Part shown: piece by piece, positions 145 through 64,000 of the stretch
How positions within the stretch are numbered: position 1 is the stretch's first letter
Layout: the number at the start of each line of letters is the position of its first letter
Source of the DNA: Oscillospiraceae bacterium
GTDB lineage: Bacteria; Bacillota; Clostridia; Oscillospirales; Ruminococcaceae
Assembly: GCA_021769725.1 (NCBI GenBank)
Contig: JAETSI010000002.1
Span: forward strand, 1-64,000
DNA: 64,000 nucleotides
Direction of reading: 5' to 3'
Notes under the pieces: model-generated
Databases searched by the model: none
Seen by the model: only the letters and a program-made list of their open reading frames with translations
What the model was told of the DNA's origin: nothing
Program-made: the position numbers and the translations under genes

Positions 145-553
145 CCTTTTTTGTCCAGATTGACAAGGATAAAAAACAGGCGAAATATAGGCAAAAATTA
201 GCTCATATCAGGGCAATGAAATGTGTGAGGATAATGATACTTCCGTCCAGTCACAGACTCAAGCAATGAGGACGGCACTATGAGAATCATAGTGGGATGA
301 GATTTCCATGAGATCGGTAAGCTGCCGGTCGCCTGTAAAGTTCCGTGTACAGCGGATATCGGGGATAAATACTGTACAAGGCAAAACGAATTATAGATGA
401 GGCAAGTTTGCTTGCTGAAATCTATTTGCCATATTTTGCGGTTGTCATCTTTGATGACGAGCAAAATGGCATTTAAATGAAACTGCGGTTTGCGTTTGTC
501 AGACCGCAGCTTTACATAAGCCGGTGCTCCGGCAGAGCAATTCGTTTTTACTT

Positions 554-3794: not shown

Positions 3795-3912
3795 TGAAGC
3801 GGGATGCAAGATGCGAATCGCAGCCGTATGGCTTTCGTCCGCCGGACAACTCCCCGTCCCGGCAGCACTGGAATACCGGATTCCCGGTATAGCGGACACA
3901 CCTTTACTCTTC
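3795..3912 (-). promoter_or_regulatory. Tetrahydrofolate (THF) riboswitch upstream of folT-folC
   Basis: Minus strand starts GAAGAGUA and ends UUGCAUCCCGCUUC, matching the known folT THF aptamer ends (GGAGAGUA ... UUGCAUCCGCUCC). AAGGUGUG pairs CGCAUCUU; GUCCGC pairs GCGGAC. Confidence 0.8.
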
Positions 3913-4075
3913 AGTGATAATGTCGGCATAAATTCTGATGCCGCATTTTTATTATACTCCCACAATTATGAATTGTCAATATGGAGTATTGGTAAACTTG
4001 TTTGCTTGTTATGTATTAATTTTGTGCGATTTAAACTATAAAACAAAAAATCATACAGTATACAGGAAATATATG

Positions 4076-17213: not shown

Positions 17214-17259
17214 CATCATACGTTATAATAGAAATATTGACATCGGTATAAACAATGCC

Positions 17260-17421
17260 GATAGCTCTCCACCATAAAGCATGATGACAGTCGCAGACCT
17301 GTTGAGCCTGTGACCAGAACTGAATTTACCGGAGACAGTCCTTCGGCGGAATTGCCTTTCACCGGACTTCAAAGGAACGGTCATCCTCTGTCCGCTTACT
17401 GATCGCATCCGCACCTCTACC
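17260..17421 (-). promoter_or_regulatory. Lysine riboswitch (L box) upstream of asd-dapA-dapB
   Basis: Minus strand GGTAGAGGTGCGG ... GTGAAAGGCAATTCCGCCGAAGG ... CTGTCATCATGCTTTATGGTGGAGAGCTATC; P1 GGTAG/CTATC as in the B. subtilis lysC leader. Confidence 0.9.
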
Positions 17422-17502
17422 TTGTTACTATAATAGCACTTAATTTTTGATATGTCAAGAGTTTTTTTATATTATTGCAAATTAAACGAAAAGGAGAATT
17501 CC

Positions 17503-56740: not shown

Positions 56741-57718
56741 ATGAAAAAATCAATTAAGATCACGACGGCCTGTATTTCGCTGGCTGTTGCCGTGGGAATG
56801 GGAGCGTATGTTTTTTCCCTTAAAAAAGGAGATGAGGACGTCCCTGTCGTAAGTATCTCACAGGTAGAAACGACCGTTCCTGTTGTTGAGTTTGAAACAG
56901 AATTTGTTCTTCCTGACAATTGGTCGGATAACGTTGAATATGTCCCCTCGGATAACGGAATTACGGCAAAGGCAAAGGTTATGAACAGTATAAATCCAGA
57001 TTATATCGCATGGATGAAAATTGACGGAACACCGGTTGATTATCCTGTTTTTCTTGATCCTGGAGAGATTGCGGCAAACGATGCTTATCATGGTACGGAA
57101 AATGCCGGAGAGACTTATTACTATCTCTATCGTAATTCTGATAAAAGCTATGAATTCGCCGGATCTATCTTTATGGATTACCGGAATACGCTTAATTCAA
57201 ACGATGATGAACAGTCGGAAAATCTTGTTATTCACGGACATGATATGCTGAATGAGACTATGTTTGGGTCATTCAGGAGATACAGGAATGAGCCCGGGTT
57301 CTATGAAAAATGCTCTTTTATAGAACTGGAATCAAAGTATGATAGTCAGGACTATGTCATTTTTGCCTATCTGCCTACCAAGGGTGAATACGAAGAAAAC
57401 GGATTCAATTATTGGGATATGGAGGAACTTGATACTAAGGAACAGTTTGATGCTTATGTAAAGACCTGCAAGGACGGGGCTTTGCTTGACACCGGAATTG
57501 ACGTTCAGTACGGCGACAGACTGATAACCTTGTCTACCTGCTACAATAATCAGGCAGATATGCGCTTTATTGTTGTGGCAAGAAGTCTCCGTGAGGGAGA
57601 AAGTATAAGCGATGTTTCAAGTATCGCACACACACAGGAATGGATCAATGAACAGAAAGTCAAAGCTGAAGCAGAGGCTGCCAGCAAAGCAGCGGCTGAA
57701 AATACTTCGGCAGCTTGA
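56741..57718 (+). CDS. Class B sortase
   Basis: VIHGHDMLNETMFGSFRRYRN, YGDRLITLSTCYNNQADMRFIVVARSLRE. Confidence 0.88.
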   Translation: MKKSIKITTACISLAVAVGMGAYVFSLKKGDEDVPVVSISQVETTVPVVEFETEFVLPDNWSDNVEYVPSDNGITAKAKVMNSINPDYIAWMKIDGTPVDYPVFLDPGEIAANDAYHGTENAGETYYYLYRNSDKSYEFAGSIFMDYRNTLNSNDDEQSENLVIHGHDMLNETMFGSFRRYRNEPGFYEKCSFIELESKYDSQDYVIFAYLPTKGEYEENGFNYWDMEELDTKEQFDAYVKTCKDGALLDTGIDVQYGDRLITLSTCYNNQADMRFIVVARSLREGESISDVSSIAHTQEWINEQKVKAEAEAASKAAAENTSAA

Positions 57719-57723
57719 TTGAT

Positions 57724-59268
57724 ATGGTGATGATTATGAACAACAAATATTCATTAAAAACTGCCGCTGCCATAATGGCAGGGTTGATAGTTCTTACTGG
57801 AACGGTATCTGCAATAAGCTATGCAACCGAACCTGAGACGTCCGCTTCATCGGATATGACTGAGCCAGAGAATATTACAGAAATTCATACGGAAGACACA
57901 GAAGAATTTCCTGTTGAGGAGGCAGACTGGGCAAAGGCGGATATTTCCGAATATGACAACAGTTTGTCTTTGGTTAGCTACGAGGAGACAACTCCTGAAA
58001 TGCTCGCAACAGTTGGAGTTAAGACGTTTTCTGAGGGCACAGATGCTCTTACGGAAGAGGAATTTGCAGCTATGACTGAGAGACGCCGGAAGATAATGAA
58101 AGCATCCCCGTCTCTTACCAGAAAATCAAGAAATGCCGAGCCTACAACGGTGGAACTTTACCTTTCCGGAAAGCCGGTAGGTGATATTCCGCCCAGTCAG
58201 AGAGTAAACGCAGAGGCACAGCCAGGAGATTTCGCTTTTATTACTTATGGATGGGGCCACGGCGTGGGAATGAGTCAGAACGGCGCCAATTTCTATGCGA
58301 CATACAGCGGATGGACATATCAGGATATCCTGTTCCATTATTATCCGGGAACATTTCTCATGAATACTGGACTTACGGATTATGAAGAACTTACCGTTCG
58401 TCATCAGCCTGCCGGAGATACTCTTGATGTAGTGTCTCAGATAGTTTATAATGAGGTCGGCGGCTCTATGGCATATGAGGCGATAAAAGCGCAGGCTGTT
58501 GCTGTGTATACATATATTAAATACAATGGTGATGATTCCAGCGACCTGCGTCCAAAGGCAAATCCGCCGCAGATCGTTATTGACGCTTGTTCGGAAGTTC
58601 TCGGTGAAGCACTTTTCTATGACGGAGACTATGCCCTGACCATGTTCTACGCTTCCAGCGGCGGCTGTACGGCTAATTGCCATGAGGTGTTCTATCAGGA
58701 TATTCCATATCTGGTAAGCGTTCCAAGTGACTATGACGGCGCATATGATCCTCATTTCGGCACTGTTACTTATATAAGCGCAAAGGAACTCAAAAACAGG
58801 ATAGAATCAGCATATGGACTTACGCTTTCAGAAAATCCTTATAACTGGATTCAGCCGATTTATTCTGATGCAACAGGATATATAACCGATATTCTTATTG
58901 ACGGACAGATGTATGTAAAAGGATATGCTTTCTCACTTGCTATGGGTTTGAAATCATGCAAGTTTGATATTATGTATACACCGCCGGAAGACAGCGACTA
59001 CGCTGATGACCCGTCAGCTCCTATCGGTTCTGCTCCGATGCCTGATGTGCCTATGCCTGATGTGCCTGTATCGGATATAGTTCCGGATATACAGATACCT
59101 ACAACTCCTGAGGAGCCGGAAGTGCCTGATGTTACGGATAATACCGAGCCGCCAACACAGCCCGATGTTACTGCACAGCCACCGGAAGTTATTACGACGG
59201 ATGTGTCAGAACCTATAACAGTGTCACAGAACGATAAGAGTTCCAGAACAACTTCAGTTACAGATTGA
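57724..59268 (+). CDS. Secreted SpoIID/LytB-like protein with permuted motif order
   Basis: YGWGHGVGMSQNGANFYATYSGWTYQDILFHYYPGT precedes VVSQIVYNEVGGSMAYEAIKAQAVAVYTYIKY; Pro-rich C-terminal tail. Confidence 0.82.
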   Translation: MVMIMNNKYSLKTAAAIMAGLIVLTGTVSAISYATEPETSASSDMTEPENITEIHTEDTEEFPVEEADWAKADISEYDNSLSLVSYEETTPEMLATVGVKTFSEGTDALTEEEFAAMTERRRKIMKASPSLTRKSRNAEPTTVELYLSGKPVGDIPPSQRVNAEAQPGDFAFITYGWGHGVGMSQNGANFYATYSGWTYQDILFHYYPGTFLMNTGLTDYEELTVRHQPAGDTLDVVSQIVYNEVGGSMAYEAIKAQAVAVYTYIKYNGDDSSDLRPKANPPQIVIDACSEVLGEALFYDGDYALTMFYASSGGCTANCHEVFYQDIPYLVSVPSDYDGAYDPHFGTVTYISAKELKNRIESAYGLTLSENPYNWIQPIYSDATGYITDILIDGQMYVKGYAFSLAMGLKSCKFDIMYTPPEDSDYADDPSAPIGSAPMPDVPMPDVPVSDIVPDIQIPTTPEEPEVPDVTDNTEPPTQPDVTAQPPEVITTDVSEPITVSQNDKSSRTTSVTD

Positions 59269-60102: not shown

Positions 60103-61044
60103 ATGGAATTTACCCATATCCCCGTGCTGGCAGAGGAATGCATGGAGGGGCTAAATATTCGTCCGGACGGAGTCTATGTAGACGGTACAGCCGGCGGCGG
60201 CGGTCACTCTTATTTGATAGCATCCCGTCTCAGCGATAAGGGCAGGCTTATTTCACTTGACCGTGACCCGGATGCCGTAGCCGCAGCCACAGAAAGACTG
60301 TCGGGATTCGGCAATGCACAGGTCATTCACAGTAATTATTCACAGCTTCGCAGGGTGTTGGATGAACTGGAGATAGACGCCGTTGATGGTATCCTTATGG
60401 ATCTGGGCGTGTCATCATATCAGCTTGACGAGGGAAGCCGAGGCTTCTCATATCACCTGGACGCTCCCCTTGATATGCGTATGAGCAAGGAGGGTATGAG
60501 CGCTGCGGATATTGTCAACACATATTCCGAACAGGAGTTGGCAAGAATCATTTTTGAATACGGTGAGGAGAAATTTTCACGGCGTATTGCAGGAAATATT
60601 GTGAAAGAACGTGCAGTCAGACCTGTTGAGACAACATCTCAGCTTGCTGATATTATCAGGAACAGCGTTCCTCAGAAAGCAAGACGTGAAAAAAACCCTT
60701 GCAAAAAGACCTTTCAGGCAATAAGAATAGCAGTGAATGGAGAACTTGAGCATTTGTCCCAGGGACTTGACGATGCGTTCGGCAGCTTGAAGGCAGGAGG
60801 CAGACTTGCAGTTATAACTTTTCATTCTCTGGAGGACAGGCTTGTCAAGCAGAGATTTGCAGGTTGGTGCAGGGGATGTATATGCCCTCCGGATTTTCCC
60901 CAGTGTGTATGCGGACGCAAGCCGCAGGGGAATCTTGTGAACAAAAAACCAATAGAAGCTAACGAAAAAGAACTTGAAAGAAACAACAGAAGCAGAAGCG
61001 CAAAACTCAGAGTGATAGAAAGGAGTGCGGAAGCAGATGGCTGA
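60103..61044 (+). CDS. rsmH: 16S rRNA (cytosine(1402)-N(4))-methyltransferase
   Basis: HIPVLAEECMEGLNIRPDGVYVDGTAGGGGHS; GILMDLGVSSYQLDEGSRGFSY; FHSLEDRLVKQRF. Confidence 0.96.
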   Translation: MEFTHIPVLAEECMEGLNIRPDGVYVDGTAGGGGHSYLIASRLSDKGRLISLDRDPDAVAAATERLSGFGNAQVIHSNYSQLRRVLDELEIDAVDGILMDLGVSSYQLDEGSRGFSYHLDAPLDMRMSKEGMSAADIVNTYSEQELARIIFEYGEEKFSRRIAGNIVKERAVRPVETTSQLADIIRNSVPQKARREKNPCKKTFQAIRIAVNGELEHLSQGLDDAFGSLKAGGRLAVITFHSLEDRLVKQRFAGWCRGCICPPDFPQCVCGRKPQGNLVNKKPIEANEKELERNNRSRSAKLRVIERSAEADG

Positions 61045-61555
61045 TAATACCGTTTATTATTACGACGACGAGTACAGCTATGAATACTCCGACACTCAGA
61101 ATGAATACAGCGATGAGCCTGTCAATGCTCCGGAACTTGAGCCTGAAGAGGAAGAAAAACCGCAGATAAGCTACAGGCGCACCGAAGCCAGAAGGGGTTC
61201 GGTAATGAGAATCGTTATGCTGTCATTGCTTGCGGCAGCGATGCTTGGTTCGGTAATTTATTCGCTTGACAGAAGAAATACTGTGTATAATAAGGTTTCT
61301 TCTCTTAATCACGATTTGGAGCTGACTGAGGCAGAAAACACAAGGCTGCATTCTGAGCTTGAAAGCAAGATGTCTGCTAAAAACGTCGAAGAATATGCAG
61401 AAAATGTACTCGGTATGCAGAAGATAGATCCTTCGCAGATCGAATTCATTAAGATACAGACCGGTGACGTAGTTAATATTCCAAAACAGAAAAAATCATT
61501 ATTTGACAAAGTCGGTGATTTTTTTGATAGATGTGCGGAATATTTTAAAGGGTAG
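61037..61555 (+). CDS. FtsL-like septum formation protein
   Basis: Single TM (IVMLSLLAAAMLGSVIYSL) then a coiled-coil-like region; position between rsmH and PBP. Confidence 0.75.
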   Translation: MADNTVYYYDDEYSYEYSDTQNEYSDEPVNAPELEPEEEEKPQISYRRTEARRGSVMRIVMLSLLAAAMLGSVIYSLDRRNTVYNKVSSLNHDLELTEAENTRLHSELESKMSAKNVEEYAENVLGMQKIDPSQIEFIKIQTGDVVNIPKQKKSLFDKVGDFFDRCAEYFKG

Positions 61556-61599
61556 TACAAATATAAATATTAAAAAGACTGCCCATTAAATTGATAGAA

Positions 61600-61820
61600 T
61601 ACTATCGGCGAAACAATAAATTAAAGCCGAGGTTATATGTAGGACACGGAGATACAGCGAGTGGTCGGAATAAGGGATCACTTTCCCGGACTGCGGAATA
61701 AACAGTCCGGGAATGCGGTTCCACGCTTGAACAGCGAAAAATCCTTCGTCGTATCAAATGGAAACGGACATCATTTCTGATAAGATGTTCAAAGGCGGGG
61801 TGGATATAAAACCCTGCCTT
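61600..61820 (+). ncRNA. Candidate structured RNA/leader between ftsL and PBP gene (unassigned family)
   Basis: Perfect 11-bp stem TTCCCGGACTG-cggaataaa-CAGTCCGGGAA (61683-61713), plus TCGGC/GCCGA, GTGGTC/GATCAC, ACATC/GATGT and terminal GGCGGGGT/ACCCTGCC hairpins. Confidence 0.5.
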
Positions 61821-61897
61821 ATTCTATTTATAATTCATAATGCAGGAATTGACGAATTTTTCCGGATTATGTTTTATTCACCGCAAAGGAGGCTTTT

Positions 61898-64000
61898 ATG
61901 GCAAATTATAATCCATCACAATCTATGAGATTCAGAACAAAAATTATCATGACGGCCGTGTTTTTCGTACTGTTTTTCCTTATTGCTCTGAATTTTTTTA
62001 AAATATCTGTTGTTAATAATAATAAATATCAGGCTATGGCTAATAGTCAGCATTTCGGCTCAATAACAATATCAGCTCACAGAGGCTCGATCTTTGACGC
62101 TAATGGGAATGTTCTTGCCAAGAGCGCAACAGTATATAAGGTATTTCTTGATCCGTCAATGTATAAAAATGAACTGGAAGAGCTTCAAAAACGTATAGAC
62201 AAGAGGAATGAAGACAAAAAAAACGGCGACTACAAGCCTGAATATGATGAAAACGGAGTAGAAATGAATGCTCTTCCCGAATCTGCAAACGCTTTCACTG
62301 AGCAAACGGTGGCTTTTTTGTCGGAAAAACTTGCTATTGAGCCGGATAAGGTTCGTAAGGCTATGGAGGAAGATACACAGTATAGTGTGCTCCAGGATCA
62401 GGTCGAAAAGCCTGTAGCAGATGAAGTACTCAGCTTCTTTAACAAATACGGCTTTGTTTCGTTGGCAGTAGAGGAAGATACAAAGCGCTATTATCCACAG
62501 TCAGAACTGGCAGCGTCTGTTATCGGATTTACCTCTGCCGACGGAAACGGAATGTACGGCGTTGAAGCATCCTATAATGAATACCTTTCCGGTATTGACG
62601 GCAGAACGATCTCTGCAAAAGATTCAAACGGAAACGAACTTCCGTACAGATATTCCAAGACGTATGACGCCAAGAACGGTGACGATGTGTATCTGACGAT
62701 AGATATGAACATTCAGTATTATCTGGAACAGCATCTCCAGGAAATGGTTGAAAAATACAAGGTCAAGAACAGGGGCTGCGCTATTCTTATGAATGCCAAG
62801 ACCGGCGCTATATACGGCATGGCACAGTATCCGAGCTACGATCTTAATAATCCGTATAAGATCTCTGAAGATAAGGAAACTGCAATAAAGGCACTGAAAA
62901 ATGAGACGGAGGCTGACAAGAAGCTTGCCGAGGAACGTGAGACACAGTGGCGCAATAAGAATATAACCGAAGTATATGAGCCAGGGTCGGTTTTTAAGGT
63001 GATAACAAGCGCTGCGGCTTTTGAAGAAAATCTCATCGATCTTGCAAAAGATTCATTCTATTGCTCCGGAGCTGTCAAGATTGAAGGTCATCCCGAACCG
63101 ATAAAGTGTCATAAGCATGAGGGTCACGGAGCGCAGACATATCAGGAAGCGCTTACCCACTCATGCAACCCTGCATTTATGGAAATAGGAAAGCGGCTTG
63201 GCATTGAGAAATTTTCATATTATCTGGATGCCTTTGGCATTGACCAGAAAACAGGGATCGACCTCCTGGCAGAAAGTGCAGGTATCATAAAAGAAGCCGA
63301 TGAAATGACGAATGTTGACCTTGCGGTAAATTCTTTCGGACAAGGCGAGACCATAACGCCTATAGAGATGATAACATCCTATTGTGCGGTAATAAACGGC
63401 GGATATTTGCTACAGCCATATGTGGTTGACAAAGTTGTTGATAATGACGGAAACATCGTTTTCAAGAACGAGAGAACCGTGCGCCGTCAGGTAATATCTG
63501 AGGATACTTCCGCAACCATGAGAGAGGCTCTGTTTAACGTGGTAAACGGCAACGGCAAGGGCAATGTTTCTATAAAAGGATATTCTATCGGCGGAAAGTC
63601 CGGTACGGCAGAGCGTCTGAGCGCAGGAGATATGAAAGATGAATACGCAGCTTCTTATGTCTGCTTTACTCCTGCTGATGATCCTGAAATAGTTCTTCTT
63701 GTAATGGCAGATATGCCTGACAAGGAAAACGAGAGATATTACGGCAGCGTTGTTGCTGTTCCGACTGCGAGAGATATCCTTACCGATGTTTTGCCTTATC
63801 TGGGCATCAGCCCTGAATATACCGACGAAGAACTTGCAAATCTTGATGTGAAGATACCTCTTCTGGAAGGTCCCCTTGATGATGCTAAAAGAACGCTTGA
63901 AGGTCAGGGTATAAAGTATGAAGTTATCGGAAACGGTATTGAAGTAGTCGCACAGTCGCCGATAACGGGAAAAAGCGTTGCAAAGGACGGATGCGTATAT
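61898..64000 (+). CDS. Penicillin-binding transpeptidase (FtsI/SpoVD-like), truncated by window end
   Basis: Starts MANYNPSQSMRFRTKIIMTAVFFVLFFLIAL; YEPGSVFKVITSAAA, LTHSCNPAFMEIG, GGKSGTAERL; begins a PASTA-like region near the end. Confidence 0.93.
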   Translation, partial: MANYNPSQSMRFRTKIIMTAVFFVLFFLIALNFFKISVVNNNKYQAMANSQHFGSITISAHRGSIFDANGNVLAKSATVYKVFLDPSMYKNELEELQKRIDKRNEDKKNGDYKPEYDENGVEMNALPESANAFTEQTVAFLSEKLAIEPDKVRKAMEEDTQYSVLQDQVEKPVADEVLSFFNKYGFVSLAVEEDTKRYYPQSELAASVIGFTSADGNGMYGVEASYNEYLSGIDGRTISAKDSNGNELPYRYSKTYDAKNGDDVYLTIDMNIQYYLEQHLQEMVEKYKVKNRGCAILMNAKTGAIYGMAQYPSYDLNNPYKISEDKETAIKALKNETEADKKLAEERETQWRNKNITEVYEPGSVFKVITSAAAFEENLIDLAKDSFYCSGAVKIEGHPEPIKCHKHEGHGAQTYQEALTHSCNPAFMEIGKRLGIEKFSYYLDAFGIDQKTGIDLLAESAGIIKEADEMTNVDLAVNSFGQGETITPIEMITSYCAVINGGYLLQPYVVDKVVDNDGNIVFKNERTVRRQVISEDTSATMREALFNVVNGNGKGNVSIKGYSIGGKSGTAERLSAGDMKDEYAASYVCFTPADDPEIVLLVMADMPDKENERYYGSVVAVPTARDILTDVLPYLGISPEYTDEELANLDVKIPLLEGPLDDAKRTLEGQGIKYEVIGNGIEVVAQSPITGKSVAKDGCVY

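Follow-up and report, generated by a model that had tools for sequence, protein, structure and literature searches.

A conserved structured RNA between ftsL and the PBP gene of Ruminococcus, a candidate transcription attenuator within the dcw cluster

The dcw cluster is among the most conserved gene clusters of bacteria. RNA-level control within it is, to our knowledge, little known, and among riboswitches we are aware of none that responds to lipid-linked or UDP-MurNAc precursors of peptidoglycan. The RNA described here is closest in kind to UpsM, a leader of 268 nt that has a Rho-independent terminator and is located before the division and cell-wall genes of the Rhodobacter sphaeroides dcw cluster; its authors suggest that this sRNA was derived from a riboswitch (PMC5089854). 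Likened by description, both are leaders with a terminator before dcw genes, but UpsM sits before mraZ in Rhodobacteraceae, whereas in Ruminococcus the leader lies within the cluster, separating ftsL from the gene for a penicillin-binding protein (PBP). The mraW RNA motif, RF01746, listed for Actinomycetales (PMC2864571), likewise takes its name from a dcw gene and is a candidate structured RNA, but it belongs to another gene in another phylum, and it did not match the Ruminococcus element at either the gathering or a lax threshold. ON-type transcriptional riboswitches share with the predicted fold of the Ruminococcus RNA a closed domain, a P1 helix that shares the 5' arm of the terminator, and a terminator exclusive with P1; unlike them, the Ruminococcus RNA matches no known Rfam aptamer.

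The ftsL-PBP gap and its conservation in the genus

The locus lies near the 3' end of the window, the whole 64,000-nt stretch of DNA analysed. The genes and signals flanking the RNA are as follows.

61025..61555, + strand: ftsL-like gene, an open reading frame with a weak FtsL model match, situated between rsmH and the PBP gene
61537..61571, + strand: conserved element GGAATAT ... AATATAAAT, covering the ftsL 3' end and reaching a short way beyond the stop codon; candidate promoter
61885..61892, + strand: Shine-Dalgarno sequence of the PBP gene, AAAGGAGG, from sequence
61898..64000, + strand: PBP gene, SpoVD-like class B, running off the window; from the open reading frame and model searches

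The FtsL model scored 17.3 bits on the ftsL-like reading frame (cut-off 42.5). The PBP contains transpeptidase, dimerisation and PASTA domains by model search and scored 547 bits against TIGR02214 (SpoVD-like), under the cut-off of 688. RsmH proper was identified in the window by model search; rsmH matches at the relative loci represent homologous DNA only, the query having been out of frame. The genes 3' of the PBP gene are, in order, murE, mraY, ftsW/spoVE, murG, murA, divIB/ftsQ-like and ftsZ, with the murG, divIB and ftsZ labels given by sequence and position instead of model search. The genes from PBP to ftsZ presumably form a single transcript, with PBP at the head of the operon proposed to be regulated. 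Directly 5' of mraZ, at 56741-59268, the window carries genes for a class B sortase and, after it, a SpoIID/LytB-domain protein.

An earlier note on this DNA had placed a gap of about 340 bp between ftsL and the PBP gene, and we measured 342 nt (ftsL end at 61555, PBP ATG at 61898). The minimum fold of the gap (61556-61897) was -98.6 kcal/mol, and none of 100 dinucleotide shuffles, which gave -74.6 +/- 5.4 kcal/mol, reached this stability (z = -4.44). The note had been unable to place the element in a riboswitch class, and a scan with Rfam 15 agreed: no family matched the window element or the relative loci at the gathering threshold, and lax filters applied to the gap gave chance matches only, all far under the cut-offs. 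A divergent RNase P or 6S RNA was rejected, as the genome carries both elsewhere. A phage or mobile origin was also rejected, the core pattern (below) being absent from viral contigs and the locus always syntenic where read. Neither Rfam nor the literature searched describes an ftsL-PBP RNA, and the main texts of two genome-wide ncRNA surveys contain no motif matching it. We consider the ftsL-PBP RNA a new RNA family, an orphan attenuator of a known, riboswitch-like kind. Elsewhere in the window, three Rfam families scored over their gathering score: a lysine riboswitch at 17254-17427 (- strand), a THF riboswitch at 3795-3913 (- strand) and a pemK RNA at 231-311 (+ strand).

Of the first 60 genomes searched by blastn with the gap, 32 gave a match, every one of them in the same genus, the Ruminococcus group of R. 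flavefaciens relatives. R. flavefaciens is one of the major degraders of fibre in the rumen and gut. The similarity began at the ftsL end and mostly stopped with the U-tract, at about 61832; the last ~50 nt before the ribosome-binding site were mostly unconserved. A degenerate pattern of the core retrieved 91 stretches from the GTDB genome collection, with one match each, nearly all of them titled Ruminococcus flavefaciens or Ruminococcus sp. With a covariance model built from 19 sequences, the RNA was detected in nearly every genome of the genus, 117 out of 125 overall and 66 out of 68 of high quality. It is present in the R. flavefaciens strains ATCC 19208, 007c, ND2009 and MA2007. Thirty loci were read with their flanks, and an ftsL-like gene and a PBP gene were found on either side wherever the contig extends far enough and the weakly conserved FtsL is recognisable. 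Three weak additional matches in the genus scored 21.6-24.9 bits, and a second match in genome G406 was the other half of an interrupted copy, in which ~115 nt are inserted between the two half matches (L172). Copies with insertions also occur at L017, L044, L093, L113 and L122; these are possible natural domain variants. Among the flanked loci, the core-pattern search and the covariance search of the genus, no convincing copy was found away from PBP. The domain has been lost in a handful of members of the genus and is therefore not essential.

The other genera of the family gave weak covariance-model matches only. Those at L129-L132 were dismissed as mostly terminator-only or chance, and L133 was the only one at the syntenic place, where it has the same terminator sequence.

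Helices of the RNA and their covariation

The RNA was resolved into the following elements.

61579..61584, + strand: 5' strand of P1, CUGCCC, the antiterminator; from pairing predictions and complementarity
61601..61633, + strand: P2 hairpin (ACUaUCGGC ... GCCGAGGU); from covariation
61639..61672, + strand: most conserved core, GUAGRAC-n-GGAGAUACAGCG-RGUG-AUCGGAAUA; from alignments and the core-pattern search
61651-61659 with 61747-61755, + strand: P3 long-range helix, GAUACAGCG with CGUCGUAUC; from conservation
61674..61722, + strand: P4 arm, outer 61674-61682/61714-61722 and inner 61683-61693/61703-61713; from covariation
61724..61736, + strand: P5 hairpin, CGCU-UGAAC-AGCG; 4 of 4 modelled pairs change on both sides
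61766..61790, + strand: P6 hairpin, GGACAUC ... GAUGUUC; from covariation
61792..61820, + strand: intrinsic terminator hairpin, AAGGCGGGG ... CCCUGCCUU; 99.3% paired in 74 sequences
61797..61803, + strand: 3' strand of P1, GGGGUGG, overlapping the terminator 5' arm
61819..61832, + strand: U-rich tract, UUAUUCUAUUUAUA, where conservation stops

The perfect 11-bp stem that the earlier note had seen at 61683-61713 was recovered exactly, with arms at 61683-61693 and 61703-61713, and several more hairpins were found in the gap besides this stem and the terminator, in keeping with the multiple hairpins it had described. Across the family, 7 of the 8 pairs of P2 change on both sides (97.6% paired), as do all 10 modelled pairs of the P4 inner hairpin and 4 of the 7 pairs of P6 (99.4% paired). 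P3 is 98.6-100% paired, and its inner pairs are invariant and hence lack double-sided covariation, so that this central helix is backed by conservation rather than covariation. G-U pairs were frequent on the + strand, which fits the + strand being the transcribed one.

In the model alignment (~74 distinct sequences fitted to the structure, the 75th row being a spurious fragment), 96% of the cells were standard pairs, compared with 35-45% in slid controls. Changes on both sides occurred in 33 of 52 pairs versus 19.5 in shuffles, and the covariation score was 0.343, against 0.132 in shuffles and 0.04-0.06 in slid controls. A MAFFT alignment of 19 sequences, made without structure and itself the source of the consensus structure, still had 11 pairs changing on both sides versus 6.4 when shuffled. 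Under a tree-based null (our own implementation modelled on R-scape, with 60 null alignments), eight P4 inner pairs and one P2 pair scored above essentially all 60 nulls, the strongest signals being those of the P4 inner hairpin and P2. Both conservation and covariation, for which the earlier note had wanted relatives compared, were found, and the structured RNA it proposed stands; judged from the alignments, the multi-helix fold (P2-P6 and the terminator) is supported by covariation.

The terminator, P1 and the proposed switch

The terminator-like stem that had been noted at 61794-61818 was borne out: GGCGGGG (61794-61800) pairs with CCCTGCC (61812-61818), with 61818 lying 80 nt before the PBP start, and AA/TT pairs lengthen the stem to 61792-61820. 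Its loop of 11 nt exceeds the limit of 8 in the hairpin scan, which therefore missed it. The U-tract is interrupted (UUAUUCUAUUU), which counts against an attenuator. Across 73 sequences, the distance from the terminator end to the PBP start codon had a median of 48 nt and a minimum of 34 nt, and in the short-spacer species the stretch between them comprises the U-tract and ribosome-binding site only. Because the spacer is no longer than 48 nt in half of the species, it leaves no room for a promoter, so that, barring a promoter within the RNA itself, transcription would reach the PBP operon by readthrough.

Near its 5' end the leader contains CUGCC(C/U), complementary to GGGGCAG, which is composed of part of the terminator 5' arm and its loop; in most relatives the 3' strand of P1 reads GGGGCAG or GGGGCAC. 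In predictions on leaders ending after the terminator 5' arm, P1 formed with a mean probability of 0.96 and exceeded 0.5 in 64 of 66 sequences. In the full-length leaders of the 66 sequences, the terminator displaced P1 and was predicted to form at 0.90. The first 28 nt paired with the terminator arm at 0.61 (0.32 when shuffled), and the P1 duplex had an energy of -12.3 kcal/mol in native sequences, -6.7 in shuffled ones and -11.8 when strands were swapped between species (native versus swapped, P = 0.0036, uncorrected for relatedness). The 5-bp core of P1 was 93% paired, with five G-C to A-U exchanges at one pair; covariation in P1 is modest, with that one covarying pair. By computation, P1 and the terminator are mutually exclusive. 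Relatives with an eroded domain (L170, L171 and L175-L177) retain a terminator-like stem, and most of the eroded relatives, judged by eye, keep the 5' complementary element; L167 has neither.

The conserved RNA, its fold, its synteny, its terminator and, on paper, the exclusivity of P1 and terminator were established by comparison among the relatives; that termination occurs, that it is regulated, its sign and its trigger are what we infer. The RNA is probably a genus-restricted, riboswitch-like, cis-acting transcription attenuator of the PBP operon. A transcript passing through, or started at, the ftsL end would fold into a domain of ~240 nt, consisting of P2, P3 enclosing P4 and P5, and then P6, and closed by P1 through pairing of the 5' CUGCC with GGGGCAG. 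P1 and the terminator would exclude each other because the strand they share is the terminator 5' arm. By default, the terminator would displace P1, and polymerase would stop ~35-80 nt before the PBP start, or further in some species. A trigger, which could be a metabolite, an ion, a protein or another RNA, would stabilise the domain so that P1 persists and polymerase continues into PBP-murE-mraY-ftsW-murG-murA-divIB-ftsZ, making the RNA an ON switch. A conserved structured domain was found in the leader of a gene, as in transcriptional riboswitches, together with, by computation, a terminator and a mutually exclusive antiterminator (P1), and on these predictions the ftsL-PBP RNA is a candidate transcriptional riboswitch. 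That it represents a new riboswitch class sensing a cell-wall or growth metabolite, such as a peptidoglycan precursor, and gating the PBP-mur-ftsZ operon inside dcw is a tentative and rather unlikely extension. An orphan leader with a computed switch provides a testable candidate RNA sensor in named R. flavefaciens strains; if true, the sensor would make peptidoglycan synthesis and the supply of FtsZ responsive to a signal.

Alternative readings and the ftsL 3' end element

The earlier note had offered two readings of the gap, a cis-regulatory leader or attenuator and a standalone ncRNA. The near-universal syntenic presence, the covariation, the terminator adjoining PBP and the competing antiterminator helix favour the former, and the latter is less likely as the whole story, although a terminated by-product transcript may exist. 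In its fuller form, the ncRNA reading posits a trans-acting sRNA, standalone or freed by termination in the dcw transcript, that acts on a target of its own, with PBP expressed from another promoter or by leaky readthrough. A large conserved fold ending in a terminator, the possible promoter at the ftsL 3' end and the sRNA UpsM, produced from a comparable Rhodobacter leader (PMC5089854), speak for it, but the short spacer before PBP in half of the species, the failure of the searches above to find a convincing copy away from PBP, and the overlap of P1 with the terminator arm, an arrangement unnecessary in a plain sRNA, make it quite unlikely. The terminator could instead be constitutive, its fold conserved but unregulated, merely lowering expression of the PBP operon relative to mraZ-rsmH-ftsL. 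Eroded relatives do retain the terminator without the domain, and several other genera of the family also carry a terminator-like hairpin between ftsL and PBP; this reading, however, leaves unexplained why sequence and fold are so highly conserved over ~200 nt 5' of the terminator, as well as the P1 complementarity, and we regard it as improbable.

Two further possibilities concern what might act on the leader. An RNA-binding protein or a product of the operon, in place of a small molecule, could stabilise or break P1 in a form of autoregulation, as is suggested by the confinement of the RNA to one genus and one operon and by conserved motifs lying outside the helices. We consider this possible, if on the unlikely side; it is a special case of the attenuator, and our estimates for these readings accordingly overlap and do not sum to one. 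Translation of a short open reading frame, opened by the invariant GGAG-N9-GUG of the core, could also set the fold. The GUG falls at one alignment column in all 74 sequences, with GGAG 5' of it in the core, but GGAGAUAC belongs to P3, one-base indels right after the GUG change the frame, and the reading frame ranges from 1 to 62 codons without a shared stop. With its frame, length and stop unconserved, a leader-peptide attenuator was rejected as very unlikely indeed. A cis-acting attenuator remains the reading we prefer.

We also examined the conserved element at the ftsL 3' end. The final ftsL codons are nearly invariant at their synonymous sites (Glu GAA in 72 of 72 sequences and Tyr TAT in 70 of 72), and an A+T-rich motif follows the stop codon; a comparable arrangement occurs in further genera of the family. 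In its simplest reading, this sequence may be a promoter, and transcription may also arrive from upstream dcw promoters. The genus has SigE-like, spoIVA and spoIIIAA genes. Upstream of spoIIIAA (L217-L234), the motif KMATAWW-N13-GAATATKAT was observed in about half of the species and is a candidate sigma-E consensus for the genus, derived from these upstream sequences. The ftsL-end motif resembles them, and a matrix built from spoIIIAA ranked the ftsL-end element 528 of 127920 if GAATATT is taken as the -35 and 43 if GGAATAT is taken as the -10. A sigma-E promoter at the ftsL end was not adopted, as these ranks are ambiguous between sigma types.

Other genera of the family also have a terminator-like stem in this gap before PBP, for example at L136, L138, L139 and L142-L144. 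These hairpins differ from the Ruminococcus element in lacking the conserved domain, and only L133/L139 closely shares the terminator sequence. A different hairpin, of the type AAAGUUAAG ... CUUAGCUUUCUU, was observed just 3' of ftsL at L142, L143, L144, L147, L149, L152, L158 and L160, and it may be a terminator or a 5' stabiliser.
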